Positions 22,003 to 56,255 of a stretch of 64,000 bases of DNA are shown here, in pieces. The translations under genes and the position numbers were made by a program. How positions within the stretch are numbered: the first letter of the stretch is position 1; each line of letters starts with the position of its first letter. The notes under the pieces were generated by a model. It saw only the letters and a program-made list of their open reading frames with translations. It had not been told where the DNA came from and made no database searches. The DNA comes from Lachnospiraceae bacterium. GTDB taxonomy: Bacteria; Bacillota; Clostridia; Lachnospirales; Lachnospiraceae. The stretch lies in the NCBI GenBank assembly GCA_015056945.1, contig SVFH01000012.1:1-64000 (forward strand). Reading direction: 5' to 3'.

Positions 22003-22422
22003 ATGATAATAGACAATTTGCTTGTGAAACGTGGATTGACAAAATATAGATTAGCGGTTAAGGCAGAGATTCCACATGCGACGTTAAACGATATATGTAG
22101 CGGGAAAACCCGGATTGAAAAATGTTCTGCTGAAACGGTGTATAAATTGGCAAAGGTTTTGGAGGTGCCGATGGAATTGCTGACAGAAGATGGAATCTAT
22201 CAGTCAAAGCGTGAAAAAGCATATGAGTATGGTTTGCCGGAATATTTACAACATGATTTGGATGCATATAAAGAGGGACTAAAAAATAAGAGTACACTTT
22301 TGGATTGTTTATGGTCTGAACTTTATGGAAGTATCAATTTGGCACAGATTAGTGATGGTATAATTACATCGGAGCATGCCGACTATCTTAGGAATAAATA
22401 CTTGTTTGGAGGGGAAAAATGA
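22003..22422 (+). CDS. XRE-family HTH protein (HipB-like partner)
   Basis: A 139-residue protein with an N-terminal helix-turn-helix (residues about 5-60: VKRGLTKYRLAVKAEIPHAT, then NDICSGKTRI) and a helical C-terminal part of unknown fold. It overlaps the next gene by 4 bases (ATGA), so the two are translated together. The arrangement resembles HipB-HipA, in which the HTH protein binds and restrains the kinase and represses the operon. A GGAGGG ribosome site precedes the ATG. Confidence 0.8.
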   Translation: MIIDNLLVKRGLTKYRLAVKAEIPHATLNDICSGKTRIEKCSAETVYKLAKVLEVPMELLTEDGIYQSKREKAYEYGLPEYLQHDLDAYKEGLKNKSTLLDCLWSELYGSINLAQISDGIITSEHADYLRNKYLFGGEK

Positions 22423-23318
22423 TTGATTTTACGAATTGCAGGGTGGTTCCGGGAAGGGCATACAATGGTGCCAACGGAAGTAAAATAGCAGTTGAGTACA
22501 ATGGCGAAGTGTATATGTTGAAGTTCCCGCCTTCAGGAGAAAAGAAACCTACGGAATTATCTTATACAAACAGCTGTATAAGTGAGCATATTGCAAGTAG
22601 TATATTTAATTTGATTGGAATCAGAGCACAGGAAACATTACTTGGGACGTATACAGTGAAAGCGAAAACAAAAATCGTATGTGCATGTAAAGATTTTACA
22701 GTTGATGGAAAGCGATTGTTCGATTTTTGTGCGATTAAGAATACAATTATTGATTCGGATAGTAATGGTAGTGGAACGGAACTGGAAGATATCATGGATA
22801 CTATTGAGAGACAAAAGTATGTTGCACCGCATATTTTGCGAGAACACTTTTGGGATGTATTTGTGACAGACGCTCTGCTGGGAAATTTTGACAGGCATAA
22901 TGGAAATTGGGGATTTCTCTATGATGACAGCAGATGTGAGGCAGAAATAGCTCCTATTTATGATTGTGGAAGCTGTTTGTTGCCACAGGCAGATGATAAA
23001 ATAATGCAGAGAATTCTTCTGAACGAAGAAGAGTTGTATGCAAGAATATATCAATTCCCGACTTCGGCGATAAAGCAAAATAATCGAAAAATTAACTATT
23101 GGGATTTTATGAGTAAAGCTGAAAATGAAGATTGTAATAAGGCATTAATCAGAATTGTGCAAAGGTTGGATATAGGTAAAATTGAGAATTTGATTGATAC
23201 TACTTTGTATATTTCAGATTTGCAGAAAGAGTTTTATAAGATGTATCTTAGAAAAAGGTTTGAATTAATTATCAGACCTGCATATGAACGAGCTAAATTG
23301 AAAAGTAAAAACAATTGA
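22419..23318 (+). CDS. HipA-like/CtkA-like Ser/Thr kinase
   Basis: A 299-residue kinase of the HipA superfamily. The catalytic loop reads GNFDRHNGNWGF with Asp158 and Asn163, and the metal-binding aspartate is in APIYDCGS (Asp182). It lacks the N-terminal subdomain of E. coli HipA, so its length and layout are closer to the stand-alone CtkA-type kinases. With the upstream HTH gene it could form a toxin-antitoxin pair or a regulatory kinase; the target is unknown. The coding sequence is visibly more A+T-rich than the M56 genes on either side, which hints at separate acquisition. Confidence 0.8.
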   Translation: MIDFTNCRVVPGRAYNGANGSKIAVEYNGEVYMLKFPPSGEKKPTELSYTNSCISEHIASSIFNLIGIRAQETLLGTYTVKAKTKIVCACKDFTVDGKRLFDFCAIKNTIIDSDSNGSGTELEDIMDTIERQKYVAPHILREHFWDVFVTDALLGNFDRHNGNWGFLYDDSRCEAEIAPIYDCGSCLLPQADDKIMQRILLNEEELYARIYQFPTSAIKQNNRKINYWDFMSKAENEDCNKALIRIVQRLDIGKIENLIDTTLYISDLQKEFYKMYLRKRFELIIRPAYERAKLKSKNN

Positions 23319-26465: not shown

Positions 26466-26494
26466 TTGCATTTTACAGGACAACATGGTAAAAT
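26466..26494 (+). promoter_or_regulatory. Promoter of the pseudokinase-VWA-PurA-like cassette
   Basis: TTGCAT (26466-26471) and TAAAAT (26489-26494), spacer 17, about 35 bases before the first gene of the cassette. Confidence 0.65.
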
Positions 26495-26530
26495 AATATC
26501 AAAAGGATAACAACAAGAAAGGGATGCAAG

Positions 26531-27424
26531 ATGTTAAGTTTTACGTGTACGAACTGCGGTGCGGAAATGTCAATCAGCAGAATCGGAATGCTGGCATGTC
26601 CGTATTGTAATGCAAAGAAGTTTTTTGACGATAATGAGTTGAATGAATACAGGGCTTTTCGCAAAAGGATGCTGGAATTTATCAGTGCATCAGCTCAAGG
26701 CGAAGAGAAAGCGATGCATGCGCAACGTTTGTGGACGGATTCTGAGAATATCCGATTCGTGGATGCAAACGGTAATGATATTTCAATAGAATATATTTAC
26801 TGTAATGTCGAGGACGGGATGACAGTATATACTGCAAGGCGGAATGTGATTTATCATATTCCAAAAGAAAAGAATTCTTATGCGGAGGTTATCTTACATA
26901 ATCTTATGAAACTTTCATATCCACAGGCGGATATGAAAGGACTCAGCAAATGTTTTCCGAAACTGGCAGGACGTTTTGCATTGCAGGATGGTGCACTTTT
27001 GCTTATTTTTGAGAAAAATGAGAATTTCTATCCGGCGGCCCTGTTCGGGGAATTATCGGCAAAACATGTAGAGTGGATTATTTCACGAATGGAGAATATT
27101 GCATGTGTTCTGGCTTACAGTGAACTGGTGCATGGCGGTATTACGCCGGATGCTGTTTATATTAATCCATGGACACATGAGGCGGCTTTGTTCGGAAGCT
27201 GGCATAAAGCCGGGCACGCTTTGCCGGCGGATGTTTCAGATTTGGAAGGAATCAGAAGTACGGCCAAAATGCTTCTTGGCGGCGGTATCGCGGCAGCGCC
27301 TGCACCGTTATTGGAATTTATTGATGGGAAACCGGCTGCGGATGCTTATGAGGATTTTGCCTGCTGGGATGAAGTGATTGAGAAGAAGCTTGGTGGAAGA
27401 CATTTTACGAAGTTTGAATTGTAA
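26531..27424 (+). CDS. Zinc-ribbon pseudokinase
   Basis: A 297-residue protein. Residues 6-26 form a zinc ribbon (Cys6, Cys9, Cys23, Cys26). The rest reads as a protein-kinase fold with a broken active site: the HRD-like loop is HGGITPDAVYINP (201-213), with Gly in place of the catalytic Asp and Ala in place of the metal-binding Asn, and the DFG-like site is LFG (220-222), with Leu for Asp. It should therefore bind rather than phosphorylate. The next gene encodes a VWA protein, 25 bases downstream, and the third a PurA paralogue. I know no characterised system with this set. The kinase fold is my reading by motif and needs a structure prediction. Confidence 0.65.
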   Translation: MLSFTCTNCGAEMSISRIGMLACPYCNAKKFFDDNELNEYRAFRKRMLEFISASAQGEEKAMHAQRLWTDSENIRFVDANGNDISIEYIYCNVEDGMTVYTARRNVIYHIPKEKNSYAEVILHNLMKLSYPQADMKGLSKCFPKLAGRFALQDGALLLIFEKNENFYPAALFGELSAKHVEWIISRMENIACVLAYSELVHGGITPDAVYINPWTHEAALFGSWHKAGHALPADVSDLEGIRSTAKMLLGGGIAAAPAPLLEFIDGKPAADAYEDFACWDEVIEKKLGGRHFTKFEL

Positions 27425-27449
27425 AAGCGATTGAAAGGAGAGTTCGCGA

Positions 27450-28346
27450 ATGGGAAGAGGAAGTTATACCAGTGCTGATTGGAGCAAATTAAAAAAGAGT
27501 TCAAAAATCACGGAAGGTTCTACTGCGTCGCAGATTTTTGCGGCAAGAAAGATGGAGGAGCGATTCAATCCGCTCTATATCAATGTGAGGGAAGCAAGAG
27601 ATTCAGAGGACCATCCGAATTCGACCCCGATTATTATCGGATTGGATACAACAGGATCCATGGGTTACTTATCAGAAGAGATTGCGAAGAACGGTTTGCA
27701 TGAAACAATGATGAAGATTTATGCAACGAATCCGGTAGAAGACCCGCAGATGATGTTTGCGGCAATCGGTGACGTGGTTGACCAGGCGCCGCTTCAGGTA
27801 ACGCAGTTTGAATCAGACATCCGTATTGCAGAGCAGCTTCTGGCATTGTGGTTAGAAGGCGCCGGCGGGGATTCACCGGAAGACTTTGAATTGTTGTGGT
27901 ATTTTGCGGCAAATCATATCATAACGGATGCATTTGAGAAACGTAGTCAGAAAGGATATCTCTTTACAATCGGAGATGCGGACTGTCACATGAAACTTTC
28001 CAAAGAGAGCATCAAGAGAATTTTTGGAGATACTGCCCAAGAATTAACATCTGCGCAACTGGTGAAAATGGCAGAGAAGAAGTTTGAATTATTCCATATT
28101 CATATCCAATCGGCTTCTGATGGGATACCGACGGGATTCTCACAGCTTTTACCGGGCAAAGTTCTTACAATTCCCAGAACATCCGTGAAATATATTCCGG
28201 AATTAATTATCAGTACAATGGAGCTGATGAACGGAAAAGATATGGAAGAGGTTATTTCACAGTGGTCTGAGCTTTCACAGCCTATTGTACGTAACAGTGT
28301 TAAGAATCTGGTTGTGAAAAAAGGAAAGAAAGGATTCTTTTTTTGA
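27450..28346 (+). CDS. VWA-domain protein
   Basis: A 298-residue cytoplasmic von Willebrand A protein without signal peptide or membrane segment. The metal site (MIDAS) starts at Asp66 in IIGLDTTGSMG, and FAAIGDV and GAGGDSPEDFELL supply the later metal ligands. VWA domains bind partners through a bound metal, often together with AAA ATPases, kinases or phosphatases. Here the neighbours are a zinc-ribbon pseudokinase and a PurA-like enzyme. Its stop overlaps the start of the PurA-like gene, so the two are co-translated. AAAGGAGAG precedes the ATG. Confidence 0.8.
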   Translation: MGRGSYTSADWSKLKKSSKITEGSTASQIFAARKMEERFNPLYINVREARDSEDHPNSTPIIIGLDTTGSMGYLSEEIAKNGLHETMMKIYATNPVEDPQMMFAAIGDVVDQAPLQVTQFESDIRIAEQLLALWLEGAGGDSPEDFELLWYFAANHIITDAFEKRSQKGYLFTIGDADCHMKLSKESIKRIFGDTAQELTSAQLVKMAEKKFELFHIHIQSASDGIPTGFSQLLPGKVLTIPRTSVKYIPELIISTMELMNGKDMEEVISQWSELSQPIVRNSVKNLVVKKGKKGFFF

Positions 28347-29566
28347 AAAAAGTTAAGTATAACGTAGTAATTGGTAAAAATTTCGGAGACGAAGGAAAAG
28401 GCATGGCGGTTGACATGCTTTCAACCGATGCGGGCCGTACCGTTGTGATACGTCATAACGGAGGTTCGCAGTCGGGGCATACGGTAGAAAAAGATGATAT
28501 CAGATTTGTGTTTCATGCACTGGGTTCCGGTTCGTTATGCGGTGCGGATACATTTTGGGCAGATACATTTTTTCCGGACTTATATAAGCTGGGAGAGGAG
28601 TGTTCTGCCTTTTGGGCATTAACAGGGTTTGTACCACGGATTTATGCCATGCCTGATGCTCAAATCACGCTGATTGATGATGTACTCTTAAATATGGCGG
28701 CAGAGGTTGCGCGCGGGGCAGACCGTCACGGTAGTTGTGGCATGGGAATCTACGAAGCATATTGCAGAAGTGAAGCAGGATTTGCTGTTACAGTTGAAGA
28801 GTTGGTTCATATGAATTCTGAACAACTGGTGATGCGTATGGCGGAAATAAGAAGGCAATACGTTCCGGTCAGATTGGCGGCATTGGGATTTGGAGATAAA
28901 TATGCGCTGCCGGAAGAATATGCGGAGTTGTTGGAAAATAGTGCAGTTCTTGAAAATGCGGCAGAGAGTATATTGGCTAATCTGAAATATGTACAAATCA
29001 TTACAGACGTTAAAGCATTTTTGGATTCGTATGATACTGTCATTTTTGAAAACGGGCAGGGATTGCTTCTGGATTCTGAGAATACGGAATTTGCGCCGCA
29101 TGTGACGGCTTCAAGAACGGGGCTTCATAATCCGGTTGCTTTTCTTTCCCGATTCGGATTTGTGCCCGAACGGGTTGTTTATGTGACACGCAGTTATGTT
29201 ACAAGACACGGAGCAGGACCGTTACCTTTTGAATGTAAAAGGGAACATTTAGGGATAGAAGGAAGCGATTTGACGAATATTCCGAATCCGTGGCAGGAAT
29301 CACTTCGTTATGCGTCGCATGGCACCATAACGGATTTCATCAAACCGGTTGCGAAAGATTTGTCTTTGCTTCCTGAAAGAGGCAATAAATGTGAATGTTT
29401 GCTCCTTATTACGCATCTAAATGAAACAGATGGCAAAATTCTTTTGAAAGAGGAAGCGCTTGATGCAGAAGGGCTTGGCTGTAGATTGGAATGTGAAACT
29501 GTATTTGACAGCATTGCAGAATCCTATACGCGTTTTTCGAAAGATATTATTGTAAAAGATTTTTGA
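28343..29566 (+). CDS. Adenylosuccinate synthetase paralogue (PurA-like)
   Basis: A 407-residue enzyme of the PurA family, which joins IMP and aspartate using GTP. The glycine loop GDEGKG (15-20) with the catalytic Asp, the catalytic His46 in SQSGHT, FENGQGLLLDSE and SYVTRHGAGPLPFE are preserved. Differences from housekeeping PurA are the shorter length, an altered ADRHGSCGMGIYEAY segment, and THLN at 357-360 where PurA has the guanine-binding TKLD. The nucleotide or substrate may thus differ. Translation starts with TTG at 28343, overlapping the VWA stop, with AAAGGA before it. It is probably not the cell's main PurA, because it sits in an accessory cassette. Confidence 0.82.
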   Translation: MKKVKYNVVIGKNFGDEGKGMAVDMLSTDAGRTVVIRHNGGSQSGHTVEKDDIRFVFHALGSGSLCGADTFWADTFFPDLYKLGEECSAFWALTGFVPRIYAMPDAQITLIDDVLLNMAAEVARGADRHGSCGMGIYEAYCRSEAGFAVTVEELVHMNSEQLVMRMAEIRRQYVPVRLAALGFGDKYALPEEYAELLENSAVLENAAESILANLKYVQIITDVKAFLDSYDTVIFENGQGLLLDSENTEFAPHVTASRTGLHNPVAFLSRFGFVPERVVYVTRSYVTRHGAGPLPFECKREHLGIEGSDLTNIPNPWQESLRYASHGTITDFIKPVAKDLSLLPERGNKCECLLLITHLNETDGKILLKEEALDAEGLGCRLECETVFDSIAESYTRFSKDIIVKDF

Positions 29567-32855: not shown

Positions 32856-33051
32856 AAATGAGGGAGTAGTGGCGCTTTGGCGTGACAGGTCAACATCACG
32901 GCTTTGAAGAAAAGTCTGGCTTGCCTTAAATAACGAGACTCATGTATTGCTGTATTGCCATACATAGGGTTTGTCTGTTTGTCAGGTGCTTCGCCGCATC
33001 GTTACTTTTGAGTATCCAACGGGTATTGCAATACAGCAATATCCGTTTTTT
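32856..33051 (+). promoter_or_regulatory. yybP-ykoY (Mn2+) riboswitch with antiterminator and terminator
   Basis: The aptamer runs 32856-32944: ATGAGGGAGTAG at the start, GGTCAACATCACGGC and GTCTGGCTTGCC inside, and ACGAGACTCAT at the end, whose CTCAT pairs with the initial ATGAG. The expression platform has a terminator (33020-33029 with 33036-33045, then six T). Bases 32946-32958 are perfectly complementary to 33028-33040, a 13-bp antiterminator. ATGTAT/ATACAT (32942-32947 with 32960-32965) could hold the antiterminator strand when the aptamer is empty, which fits the known on-switch logic. The class is secure by motif; the logic is inferred. Confidence 0.85.
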
Positions 33052-33181
33052 GATTTGTAGGATTCCAGTGTCAAAAGGTCATAAACCACATGTGCTTGCA
33101 CATAAGTGGTTTTATGAATTTGGTACACGCCACAACATGAGCATAAAAGCGGGGCGTAAGCTCCGCGATATGCGAATGGTG

Positions 33182-33340
33182 TGTAGGATTGCGGGAGTGC
33201 GAAGCACGGAGCAATCCGAAGAATCCGTATTAGACGAAAGTCGAAAACGGTGTAGGATTGCGGGAGTGCGAAGCACGGAGCAATCCGAAGAATCCGTATT
33301 AGACGAAAGTCGAAAACAGAGAAGGATTGCGAGAGTGCAG
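33182..33340 (+). repeat. 69-bp tandem repeat of paired hairpins
   Basis: Two near-perfect units start at 33182 and 33251 and a degenerate third starts at 33320. Each unit folds into two hairpins: GGATTGC/GCAATCC with an inner GTGC-GAA-GCAC, then CCGT/ACGG with an inner GAC-GAAA-GTC. They lie in the untranslated leader between the Mn riboswitch terminator and the ABC ATPase gene. The unit length is a multiple of three, which creates a misleading open frame. Confidence 0.85.
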
Positions 33341-33367
33341 AAAGGTAAAACAAAGGAGGAAAAAAGT

Positions 33368-34066
33368 ATGTTTTTGGAAATCAAAGGGATTCACAGAAGT
33401 TTCGGTGCAGGTGAAAACAGGGTCGAAGTATTGAAAGGTATTGATGTGGAAATGGAGCGCGGCGAGTTGTGTGTATTGCTCGGTCCGTCAGGCTCAGGCA
33501 AATCTACTCTTCTTAATATCATCGGCGGAATTGACAGTGCAGACAGCGGTTACATCTCCATCGCAGGAGAGAAAACAGCAGACATGAGCGAGAAGGCACT
33601 TACCGCATACCGCAGAAAACATCTTGGTTATATTTTTCAGCAATACAATCTGATTCCAAATCTGACAGTCCGTGAAAACATTGAAGTGGGTGCATATCTG
33701 AGCGAGAAACCACTGAATACGGACGAAATTCTTGAAGTATTAGGTCTTACCCAACATCAGCATAAAATGCCCAATCAGCTTTCCGGCGGACAGCAGCAAA
33801 GAACAGCCATCGGTCGGGCCGTGATTAAGAATCCGGATATTCTTCTTTGCGACGAACCGACAGGTGCGCTTGATTATAACACTTCCAAAGATATCCTGAA
33901 ACTGATATCCGATGTCAATGAGAAATACGGTTGTACGGTTCTTATGGTAACGCACAATGATGCGATTCAGAATATGGCCGACAGAGTGATTAAGTTACAT
34001 GACGGCACCATCAGAAGCAACATCGTAAACGCTGATAAGACAGACGCAGCACTTCTTGAATGGTAG
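33368..34066 (+). CDS. ABC transporter ATP-binding protein, MacB/LolD type
   Basis: A 232-residue ATPase with Walker A GPSGSGKST, Q-loop YIFQQYNLIP, signature LSGGQQQR, Walker B ILLCDEPTGALD and the switch histidine in VTHND. The sequence is of the kind that works with FtsX-fold permeases such as the one encoded 11 bases downstream. ATG 33368 follows AAAGGAGG; the longer open frame from 32942 runs through the riboswitch, terminator and tandem repeats and is not real. Expression should depend on the upstream Mn2+ riboswitch. Confidence 0.93.
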   Translation: MFLEIKGIHRSFGAGENRVEVLKGIDVEMERGELCVLLGPSGSGKSTLLNIIGGIDSADSGYISIAGEKTADMSEKALTAYRRKHLGYIFQQYNLIPNLTVRENIEVGAYLSEKPLNTDEILEVLGLTQHQHKMPNQLSGGQQQRTAIGRAVIKNPDILLCDEPTGALDYNTSKDILKLISDVNEKYGCTVLMVTHNDAIQNMADRVIKLHDGTIRSNIVNADKTDAALLEW

Positions 34067-53579: not shown

Positions 53580-55457
53580 ATGTTAGCATCAGAAATCAAG
53601 AAAATGTGCTTGTGCTGTATGCATATGAGTAAAGAGGATCTTTTTTGTCCCGTTTGCGGTAAAGATAAACGTGGAGGAAAGAGTTACGGGCGTGCATTAG
53701 AGCCGGGAACGATTCTCAACGGAAAAATTTTAATTGGTAACATTCTCGGTATGGGTAATTTCGGTATTACTTATATCGGTTTTGACATGTTATTGGAATG
53801 CCGCGTGGCGGTAAAAGAGTTCTTTCCGGATGAAATGGTGGAACGAGAAGAGGACGGAAGCTTAAGGGTTGCAAGCGGAACGACAGAGGAAGAATATAAA
53901 GAAGAGCTTGCGGCATACCAAAGGGAAGCGAGAATTCTTGCGCAGTTTTCAAAGCATCCCGGTATTGTTTCAATTAAGGAACTTTTTTACGAAAATAATA
54001 CAGCATATATGGTAATGGAATATCTTGAGGGTGGTACCCTTAGAAGATATATTGATAATCATGGGGGAAGTTTGTCAGTTGAGCATACACTTTCATTGAT
54101 GGAACCGGTTATTTCATCCATGGAAGAAATTCACAAAATGGGATTGATTCATCGCGATATCAGTCCTGAGAATATTATGCTTGATACAGACGGCAGTATT
54201 AAAGTAATTGACTTTGGAGCAACTAAGAAATTAAGTAATAAAACAGCCCAGGTTTATTTCGGAAAGTTTGGATATGCACCGCTTGAACAGATGATGGGCG
54301 AGGGACAGGGAGCTTGGACGGATGTCTATGGTATTTGTGCAACCATGTATTGTATGATTACCGGTGATATTCCTACCGATGCTTACCAGAGAAGTCTGAA
54401 TGAACCTTTGATTCCGATTTCCGATTATGCAATTGAAATCGAAAAGAGAGTTGCAGATGCAATTATGAAGGGGCTTTCCATGGATTGCAATGACAGACAG
54501 CAGGACATGGGTCAGTTGAAAAAGAATCTTTATGGTGTGAAAATCAATGCAGAAGTGCAGCAAAGTTATGCTATTGAGAATCCGCACAATGAAGACCTGA
54601 TGCTTTATGATAAGAAACACCGTCGTGTTTGGTTTGGACATTATCCGATGAACGAAGTGACCGGACCGGATCTGACAACAGATATCATCTATGCAAATTA
54701 TGACGGATATGACAGAGCGGTGGTTGCAGACCGCAAATATAAACGCTTTTCCGTGCAAAATTCACTGATGTCCAAAGAGTTTCGCTTGGCAAATAAACAG
54801 GCGATTAAAGATGCAAGCAGAATGGATCGTATTTTTGAATTTACTGACATTCCGTGGGTTATTTTGCATCAAAACGGAAATAAGATGATTTTGCAGACGG
54901 AATATATCATTGATTTCGGATTGTTTAATGAGAAGAACTATATCGACTATTCGGAACGTGAAATTTCCAAAATCAGAACGGGAATTAATTGGGAAACAAG
55001 TAAAATCAGAGAATGGTTGAATCGTGATTTCTTCCGTGAGGCATTTACGAAAGAAGAACAGAAGAAAATTCTGATTACCGAAGTAGTGACGCCGATATCC
55101 ACTTTTTCAGATCAGGTGACTTACGACAGAGTTTTTCTTCCTTCCGTGGAAGAAGTTATTTCCGGATATGATTACAGAACAGTACGATGCGGAAATACAA
55201 TTAAAACTCCTGAGAATCAGAATCAGGTCTTTTATTCTCAATATGCGGCCGTGAAGAGATTTGATGAAAGCATGTCGATGGGCTCTGCATTGAGAACCCG
55301 CGGTACAATTAATTTCGCAAACGGAACATTGACATACGGTGAAAGCTGTGAAGGTCATTGCATTCAGGACGGAATGCTGGTTTGCTGGAAATTAAACATG
55401 CCGATGGGAATTCGTCCGGTAATTCAAGTGGACGTAACAGATATTGTGGAAGTGTAG
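53580..55457 (+). CDS. Ser/Thr protein kinase with zinc ribbon and DUF6273-like C-terminus
   Basis: A 625-residue protein. A zinc ribbon (Cys10, Cys13, Cys23, Cys26) precedes a complete Hanks-type kinase domain (about 45-310): GMGNFGITYIG glycine loop, Lys79 in VAVKEFF, HRDISPENIM (191-200), and DFG at 211-213. From about 340 a second domain runs to the end (VWFGHYPMNE, then WETSKIREWLNRDFF and MGIRPVIQV), resembling DUF6273, a fold related to sulfatase-modifying enzymes. There is no membrane segment, unlike PrkC. A PPP-type phosphatase follows 12 bases later, so the two may write and erase the same phosphorylation. Confidence 0.87.
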   Translation: MLASEIKKMCLCCMHMSKEDLFCPVCGKDKRGGKSYGRALEPGTILNGKILIGNILGMGNFGITYIGFDMLLECRVAVKEFFPDEMVEREEDGSLRVASGTTEEEYKEELAAYQREARILAQFSKHPGIVSIKELFYENNTAYMVMEYLEGGTLRRYIDNHGGSLSVEHTLSLMEPVISSMEEIHKMGLIHRDISPENIMLDTDGSIKVIDFGATKKLSNKTAQVYFGKFGYAPLEQMMGEGQGAWTDVYGICATMYCMITGDIPTDAYQRSLNEPLIPISDYAIEIEKRVADAIMKGLSMDCNDRQQDMGQLKKNLYGVKINAEVQQSYAIENPHNEDLMLYDKKHRRVWFGHYPMNEVTGPDLTTDIIYANYDGYDRAVVADRKYKRFSVQNSLMSKEFRLANKQAIKDASRMDRIFEFTDIPWVILHQNGNKMILQTEYIIDFGLFNEKNYIDYSEREISKIRTGINWETSKIREWLNRDFFREAFTKEEQKKILITEVVTPISTFSDQVTYDRVFLPSVEEVISGYDYRTVRCGNTIKTPENQNQVFYSQYAAVKRFDESMSMGSALRTRGTINFANGTLTYGESCEGHCIQDGMLVCWKLNMPMGIRPVIQVDVTDIVEV

Positions 55458-55469
55458 AGGGACAGTGGA

Positions 55470-56255
55470 ATGAGTAATTATGTGATTAGTGATATCCACG
55501 GTCAGTACAAAAGCTACAAAAGAATGTTACGTGCCATTCAATTACAGCCCGAAGACACTTTATATGTTCTTGGTGATGTGATTGACAGGGGGCCGGATGG
55601 AATCAAGATTTTGAATGATATGATGAAGCGTGAGAATGTAATCATGTTTATGGGAAATCATGAACTTATGATGCTGGATGCTTTAAAGAATTTGCAGGAA
55701 TATCGCTCACATGATCGTGAGGATACAGATGATTTAGACCTGTGGCTGGATCCTTGCAATGGCGGAAAGCGTACGTTTGAAGCGTTTCAGGAATTATCTC
55801 CCGCAAAGAAAAAACAGATTATACAATACCTTGAAAGCTCTTATGTTATCAAGCGTATTACGATTAATAAGAAGAAATATCATCTTTCGCACGCATATAT
55901 TTGCGACAAGAAAGGGGATAGTATTAAGTATAGTGATGTTCGCCATCGTCAGGTTTGGGATTCCGTATGGATTAATATTTATGACCGCGCATTTTTGAGC
56001 AAAAATGAAGCCCATATTTTCCCAAATAAAAAGACGATTTACATAGCCGGACATACATTTACACAGCGTCTGGACTGTATGGACGAGCTTGGAAGAGGCG
56101 TGGTTTATCATAATGATAATTATCATGGCTATCATGTCTATAATATTGATTGCGGCATGGCTCTGAAGAATAAATCCAGTCAGCTTGGTTGCCTTCGTAT
56201 TGAAGATGGTATGGAATTTTATGTTCCGCTTGAGGAAAATAATATTCTTAAATAA
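55470..56255 (+). CDS. PPP-family Ser/Thr phosphatase or Ap4A-type hydrolase
   Basis: A 261-residue metallophosphatase. Metal and phosphate motifs are VISDIHGQYKS, LGDVIDRGPDG, MGNHELM and AGHTFTQ, typical of bacterial PrpA/PrpE-like enzymes and of diadenosine tetraphosphatases. An insertion of about 60 residues (NLQEYRSHDREDTDDLD to CNGGKRTF) separates the motifs. Because it follows a Ser/Thr kinase gene after 12 bases, dephosphorylation of proteins is the likelier role. Confidence 0.85.
   Translation: MSNYVISDIHGQYKSYKRMLRAIQLQPEDTLYVLGDVIDRGPDGIKILNDMMKRENVIMFMGNHELMMLDALKNLQEYRSHDREDTDDLDLWLDPCNGGKRTFEAFQELSPAKKKQIIQYLESSYVIKRITINKKKYHLSHAYICDKKGDSIKYSDVRHRQVWDSVWINIYDRAFLSKNEAHIFPNKKTIYIAGHTFTQRLDCMDELGRGVVYHNDNYHGYHVYNIDCGMALKNKSSQLGCLRIEDGMEFYVPLEENNILK

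Follow-up and report, generated by a model that had tools for sequence, protein, structure and literature searches.

Several described systems share parts with the locus analyzed here. The TerY-P triad unites a VWA protein, a PP2C protein and a kinase with a C-terminal zinc ribbon, according to PMC11090510. In phage PurZ, Ser is reported in place of the catalytic Asp in all 147 sequences (PMC12884076). NrtR is presented as an ADP-ribose sensor in PMC9503650. We analyzed a stretch of 64,000 nucleotides from a Lachnospiraceae gut bacterium (contig SVFH01000012.1, positions 1 to 64,000; hereafter, the window), which contains three co-directional genes at 26531-29566. We refer to these genes as K (zinc-ribbon pseudokinase), V (VWA protein) and A (PurA homologue). 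K-V-A is apparently one case of a patchy and mobile module whose core consists of A and V.

Conservation and spread of the V-A unit

Linkage was counted with six-frame profile searches on loci with enough flanking sequence, without dereplication. The genome loci were the best 80 of 257 relatives found with a V profile in a species genome collection; viral contigs provided 69 V loci, and the viral A loci were the best 80 of 85 matches. When loci were searched starting from V, A was found downstream in 69/70 genome loci and K was found nearby in 71/73. Among viral contigs, A was present in 61/65 of the loci found through V, and V was present in 78 of the 79 loci found through A. The cassette proposed by the initial annotation is therefore real as a conserved unit, and our analysis extends it to phages and plasmids, to a swappable third gene and to NAD-salvage neighbors in phages.

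Strong relatives of A were detected in 11 of 25 genomes of the genus (including the window's own) and in 12/31 genomes of a second, larger sample. V is located directly 5' of A in all ten relatives from the genus and K is also present in nine of them, the contig of the tenth starting at V. Four of these ten relatives present two copies of V and one common set of flanking genes, and the flanks of the others differ. Since the flanks vary between lineages of the genus while K-V-A stays, the cassette is conserved and its neighborhood is not. V is nonetheless patchy: it was found in 8/391 genomes sampled from the class, representing 3/223 genera, and as a single copy in its own genome. Judging from their titles, the best 80 genome loci come mostly from Lachnospiraceae and Ruminococcaceae/Oscillospiraceae, many of them from rumen, and include one metagenome-assembled genome (MAG) of Myxococcales and one MAG of Deltaproteobacteria.

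Using tblastn, 206 phage records matched V and 212 matched A (duplicates included), the latter comprising a few low-coverage matches that are possibly ordinary PurA. Among plasmid records, 21 matched V and 27 matched A, with ordinary PurA among the 27. The phage matches listed name A as an adenylosuccinate synthetase of one form or another, in part with a PurZ-type label, and leave V as hypothetical. In Mycobacterium phage QBert, a 'serine/threonine kinase', a hypothetical protein and a 'PurA-like adenylosuccinate synthetase' are encoded consecutively, and PHROG profiles link this trio to the window's K (weakly, E 0.0049), V (2e-33) and A (1.5e-49). V and A were also found in Vibrio phages Va1 and phiKT1024 and in Rhizobium phage RHph_Y65, and plasmids of Acetobacter, Agrobacterium vitis, Rhodococcus and Tsukamurella carry a gene in the position of K followed by V and A. 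Annotation of the cassette genes in named phages and plasmids is piecemeal.

The features of the cassette in the window are:

26472..26499, + strand: candidate sigma-70 promoter TTTACA-16-TAATAT, upstream of K
26531..27424, + strand: gene K, N-terminal zinc ribbon and pseudokinase, 297 amino acids
26546..26608, + strand: zinc ribbon of K, Cys6/Cys9/Cys23/Cys26, from sequence; the four Cys are invariant in eight genus sequences
27131..27154, + strand: degenerate catalytic loop of K, HGGITPDA (HRDxxxxN in active kinases)
27450..28346, + strand: gene V, VWA-fold protein, 298 amino acids
27453..27455, + strand: Gly2 of V, the N-terminal residue if Met is removed; Gly in 167/170 V sequences
27645..27665, + strand: metal-ion-dependent adhesion site (MIDAS) of V, DTTGSMG; D66 and S70 in 170/170, T68 in 168/170
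28343..29566, + strand: gene A, predicted PurA-family ligase of a separate clade, 407 amino acids, TTG start
28373..28402, + strand: nucleotide loop of A, GKNFGDEGKG, with catalytic Asp16 at 28388-28390; Asp in 182/184
28478..28480, + strand: catalytic His46 of A; 184/184
28736..28738, + strand: Cys132 of A; Cys in 177/184, Thr in 8/8 PurA and 6/6 PurZ/PurZ0
29204..29209, + strand: Arg288-His289 of A, Arg at the aspartate-loop position and His replacing Val; Arg 175 and Lys 9, His 184, n=184
29411..29422, + strand: THLN of A, counterpart of the guanine-contacting TKLD; last position Asp 97, Asn 79, n=184

The single shared promoter that had been proposed for the three genes found no support, as sites like this candidate are no more frequent than expected by chance. 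V does present the VWA fold with a DxSxS-type MIDAS, and the intact MIDAS initially read in this protein holds across the family, as shown by the counts above. A sequence-profile search of the PDB with V returned no convincing relative. Nearly all V sequences start with Met-Gly, which is unusual for residues located ahead of a VWA fold, and this near-invariant Gly2 suggests a functional N-terminus.

Gene A and the PurA family

Residues of A were counted in 184 of 188 dereplicated sequences (four were dropped for length) and are compared to the numbering of E. coli PurA, in which Asp13 and Arg303 are based on the literature and His41 is the number that we take for the catalytic His. Besides the catalytic Asp and His46, A retains Lys19 (182/184) and presents Arg (175) or Lys (9) at the equivalent of Arg303. 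Three substitutions relative to PurA are found family-wide: Gln43 for Asn38 (182/184), Cys132 for Thr129 and His289 for Val. Asn312 and Gln318 (182/184 each) are also near-invariant and differ from PurA. Asn38 and Thr129 of E. coli PurA contact the 5'-phosphate of inosine monophosphate (IMP), and the position of His289 lies within the aspartate loop. THLN was considered as the mark of an ATP-specific family and was dropped, since Asp and Asn occupy its last position almost equally.

A matches the PurA family PF00709 with 116.1 bits (gathering score 27), the match stopping at residue 301, but it falls far below the cut-offs of the purA equivalogs TIGR00184 (76.8 vs 395.55 bits) and PRK01117 (98.2 vs 402 bits). 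A maximum-likelihood tree, unrooted, was built from 64 sequences, comprising 50 A (the window's A, 45 chosen at random and four named ones), eight PurA and six PurZ/PurZ0. A forms its own clade, and A and PurA are separated from PurZ and PurZ0, each of these splits having an ultrafast bootstrap of 100. The separate clade and the family-wide changes in the IMP pocket agree with the initial view of the third protein as a PurA paralogue with a remodeled active site. All six PurZ/PurZ0 sampled here present Ser at the catalytic Asp. Because A keeps this Asp and groups apart from PurZ, the phage name '2-aminooxy adenylosuccinate synthetase' spans two enzymes: PHROG 1211 covers both the true PurZ of phage phiVC8 and the A branch of some mycobacteriophage, Rhizobium and Vibrio records. 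For phage records of the A branch, this name is likely a misannotation.

We further analyzed the canonical enzymes of the genus. The initial annotation had placed A outside purine synthesis provided that it is not the organism's only PurA. This proviso seems not to hold for the window's genome (88% complete), in which A is the sole PF00709 match and purB was not found above cut-off either. In the genus, canonical PurA coexists with A in 9 of the 12 genomes with A; in two of these nine, purA is split, in G004 because of a stop and in G023 between two contigs. Both canonical purA and purB stayed below cut-off in the window's genome, in G001 (its closest relative by A, 90% complete) or in G428, which lacks the cassette and is 97% complete. 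Their absence is probable; without purB, adenylosuccinate would be a dead end. Among the genus genomes G000, G001 and G428, the completeness of the last suggests that adenylate auxotrophy may be real in a subclade. However, G021 (73% complete) presents A and purB without canonical purA, and the well-covered drafts G020 and G023 present purA without purB above cut-off, which indicates that draft gaps matter.

In a separate observation, the canonical PurA of relatives from the genus and the order (L260-L264) present EAQLG or EGQLG, and KAYSTCVG, KAYSSAVG or KAYSTAVG. The positions of E. coli Gln224 and Arg303 look shifted or lost in these sequences, the Arg being substituted by Cys or Ala in 5/8 of those sampled.

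Gene K and the exchangeable third gene

Structure prediction was applied to K and V. K presents a kinase fold in which the Asp of the HRD motif is lost, as expected of a pseudokinase, and the zinc-ribbon pseudokinase described initially (HGG for HRD) was confirmed. The catalytic Asp is kept in 13/79 genome K and in 2/35 viral/plasmid K, i.e., 15/114, and lost in the other 99; its rare retention makes the dead-kinase state the rule. Matches to K in a sequence-profile search of the PDB were limited to zinc ribbons and weak kinase matches, and no family of Pfam, NCBIfam or PADLOC scored above cut-off for K or V. BLAST of the window's K against phages gave no match at E 0.01; phage K were reached by profiles built from the loci and, weakly, by PHROG 3043 (E 0.0049).

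Genome and viral/plasmid K differ in their motifs. The zinc-ribbon pattern was found in 77/79 genome-type K and in 0/35 viral/plasmid K, whereas an HPD-type motif, searched with the identical pattern, was found in 31/35 viral/plasmid K and 5/79 genome K. Four of the six viral/plasmid K that were scanned matched DnaJ (PF00226) with E-values from 0.00017 to 0.025. These matches are repeated, yet all are below cut-off, and we therefore term these K 'J-domain-like'. One mycobacteriophage 'serine/threonine kinase' (L255:6709-7779) reads HGA for HRD and IDW for DFG and, judging from its residues, looks like a J-domain-like pseudokinase; it nevertheless scores above the cut-off of PF00069.

In other viral lineages, the slot of K is taken by a Met-rich small protein (c4/c5, a single family) or by the small protein c3. 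The gene c4/c5 immediately precedes V-A in many large phages (e.g., L176:4486-5109 and L110:5276-5989), and its two scanned representatives had no match in Pfam (E <= 0.01) or PHROG (E <= 0.001). The 115 dereplicated viral loci comprise 38 with K, 39 with c4/c5, 25 with c3 and 13 with none, and two adaptors were never found together. On this distribution, it looks as if one adaptor was displaced by another in the third slot, and the swappable adaptor illustrates the rewiring of a fixed enzyme core.

Reading the window by eye, we observed several other genes. A second kinase with a zinc ribbon, in which the HRD and DFG motifs are present, is encoded at 53580-55457, and a phosphoesterase-like gene follows (55470-56255). 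At 22003-23318, the gene of a helix-turn-helix regulator overlaps a HipA-like kinase gene, which resembles a toxin-antitoxin pair. Finally, an open reading frame of an ABC transporter (32942-34066) contains near its start two tandem copies of the stretch encoding CRIAGVRSTEQSEESVLDESRK.

NAD-related neighbors, proposed function and known systems

A subset of 50 contigs, out of the 115 dereplicated viral ones, was searched for NAMPT/NAPRT (PF04095), one of four families tested. PF04095 was found on 18/50 contigs, and on 13 of these 18 it is no more than 6 kb away from V-A, where 1.58 are expected by position (P 2e-11). In comparison, the large subunit of ribonucleotide reductase (RNR; PF02867), used as a control, was near V-A in 1/16 contigs with 1.45 expected, and is not enriched. 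When contigs were grouped at 50% identity of A, the proximity to PF04095 was observed in 12/17 groups, and relatedness does not explain the signal at this level. A nicotinamidase-type isochorismatase was near V-A in 4/10 contigs (P 0.01) and TROVE in 4/11 (P 0.008). On contigs L206 and L210, a nicotinamidase-like isochorismatase, V, A, NAPRT and NAD synthase follow each other in this order, separated by a few genes. On plasmids, a divergent gene of the NrtR type (NUDIX and winged helix) is adjacent to the Agrobacterium vitis unit (E 2e-15), and another (E 4e-23) is located by V on a Rhodovulum plasmid. In Tsukamurella and Rhodococcus plasmids, a NUDIX gene is found downstream, its winged helix being below cut-off or absent. 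Two Vibrio phages present a NADAR gene a few genes upstream.

Based on these results, we propose, at roughly even confidence, that V and A constitute a ligase complex with a swappable adaptor which makes a modified purine nucleotide, probably in a conflict over NAD or ADP-ribose. The signal or defence metabolite suggested initially is a hypothetical product. The fixed core would be A, a PurA-derived ligase, with V as its dedicated VWA partner, and their near-obligate linkage suggests that they work as a complex. The third part would be an exchangeable adaptor: a zinc-ribbon pseudokinase in genomes, and a J-domain-like pseudokinase or one of two small proteins in phages and plasmids. Since the catalytic Asp, the His and the nucleotide loop are retained, the 6-oxo group of a purine would be phosphorylated by A at the expense of a nucleoside triphosphate and then displaced by an amine, as in PurA. 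An acceptor other than free IMP is suggested by the conserved replacement of Asn by Gln and of Thr by Cys in the pocket for the IMP phosphate. The adaptor, mostly devoid of catalytic residues, would regulate or position the V-A complex. The setting is most likely a conflict between virus and host in which NAD+, ADP-ribose or related adenine nucleotides are at stake, and the step from NAD clustering to a substrate derived from NAD or ADP-ribose is the weakest of this proposal. A more specific version appears rather unlikely: A would represent a third functional branch of the PurA superfamily, next to those that synthesize AMP and 2-aminoadenine. This strictly VWA-dependent ligase would attach an amine to a larger adenine nucleotide at its purine (e.g., in the deaminated adenylate half of NAD+ or ADP-ribose), or else the nucleotide to Gly2 of V, in the conflict over NAD+, and this modification of a nucleotide or a protein would be used by phages and bacteria alike.

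Several observations weigh against the proposal of an adaptor-bound V-A ligase in NAD conflict. Five loci present V without A (L091, L104, L106, L158 and L170), L182 presents A with V only on the opposite strand, and on the Rhodovulum plasmid, whose NrtR match is the best one, V was detected without A. No recognized adaptor was found in the 13 viral loci mentioned above and in 5/68 genome loci. Regarding NAD, only 3/5 groups at 40% identity of A are near the NAD gene, and the isochorismatase and TROVE signals are weak considering that four families were tested. An anaerobic RNR pair is located within 5 kb of V in both Vibrio phages that were read, so the PF02867 control is not valid for every nucleotide gene. 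No NAD gene adjoins the cassette in the window, and no obvious one was seen among the shared clusters of genome loci examined, with one locus excepted. The NAD link may thus be confined to phages and plasmids, and NAD and RNA-repair genes of phages form common clusters, whose neighborhood V-A may merely share.

Instead, A could be an ordinary though diverged adenylosuccinate synthetase, providing AMP for the host or for the NAD and DNA synthesis of a phage, with V and K as accessory regulators. The retained Asp, His, nucleotide loop and Arg303 equivalent fit this explanation, as do the NAD synthesis genes adjoining phage A, which require adenylate, and the genomes in which A is the only PF00709 match (the window's genome and G021, the latter with purB). 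We consider it unlikely, since the IMP-phosphate contacts are substituted family-wide, the score is far under the TIGR00184 cut-off, canonical PurA coexists in most genus genomes with A, and purB was not found above cut-off in the window's genome and G001, although G020 and G023 indicate that gaps are possible. A role of A in base-modified DNA, as a 2-aminoadenylosuccinate synthetase of the PurZ type, was rejected on its catalytic residue and on the tree, and is extremely improbable. The names of some phage records and of PHROG 1211 point to PurZ, and the three PurZ sampled here also present Asn at the guanine-contact position, but Ser replaces the catalytic Asp in the reported phage sequences and in our own sample, A groups with PurA against PurZ and PurZ0, and the unit is present in bacterial genome contigs too.

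The cassette could also be a variant of the TerY-P triad, i.e., a metal-sensing phosphorylation switch with A as its output enzyme. VWA, kinase fold and zinc ribbon together are the TerY-P recipe, and VWA duplications occur in both, going by PMC11090510. The initial annotation had evoked tellurium-resistance (Ter) systems, and an indirect link does persist in one Rhizobium phage locus with PRTase_3 and HAD genes nearby, but identity with the triad does not. No PP2C match was found in K, V or A (outer neighbors were not scanned one by one). Moreover, the window's K is not an active Ser/Thr kinase with a C-terminal ribbon: HGG replaces HRD and the ribbon is N-terminal. With the catalytic Asp missing in 99/114 K, phosphorylation by most of them is unlikely, and the ribbon is absent from all 35 viral/plasmid K, so we judge a TerY-P variant improbable as well. 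Alternatively, A could be a catalytically idle nucleotide sensor within a chaperone-like device for protein assembly, composed of VWA and a J-like domain or pseudokinase. VWA proteins are frequently co-chaperones, as stated in PMC9503650, and the HPD-type motif of viral/plasmid K points the same way. This explanation is quite improbable, because the Asp, Lys and His of A are near-invariant and would be needless for an idle sensor.

A V-A ligase with a new substrate would make a class of nucleotide chemistry of phages and bacteria testable, and the proposal, if true, links the PurA superfamily, VWA scaffolds and NAD/ADP-ribose conflict. A tractable host for such tests is M. smegmatis, since the three-gene unit is found in its cluster C mycobacteriophages, QBert among them.

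We finally compared the module to known systems. No description of the V-A link was found in the open-licence literature that was searched; in PMC10892097, tables of Vi01-like phages list an adenylosuccinate synthase and a VWA protein, which may or may not be related or adjacent. None of the three proteins matched a family of the defence-system database PADLOC-DB 2.0 at E <= 1. A shares with PurA the family PF00709, the nucleotide loop, the catalytic Asp and His and the Arg of the aspartate loop, but it forms a separate clade with a fixed VWA partner and with Gln, Cys and His substitutions. PurZ and PurZ0 of 2-aminoadenine phages are likewise phage-borne PurA paralogues under the same PHROG name, but PurZ presents Ser where A presents the catalytic Asp, and A groups with PurA. 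Like TerY-P, the cassette combines in one operon a VWA protein with a MIDAS, a kinase fold and a zinc ribbon; it differs by a PurA homologue instead of PP2C, a mostly dead kinase, an N-terminal ribbon and a swappable adaptor. The NrtR/NUDIX ADP-ribose conflict systems, as described in PMC9503650, resemble the plasmid loci by a NUDIX winged-helix regulator next to a VWA gene, whereas the core here is PurA-like and the annotation of the plasmid stretches read includes neither an ARG domain nor a phosphatase (no profile search was made). As for the NAD salvage clusters of large phages, V-A is often located beside NAMPT/NAPRT, but it is not a known NAD enzyme and 32/50 viral contigs with V-A lack PF04095. 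K-V-A is built from known folds and appears to be new as a gene module.

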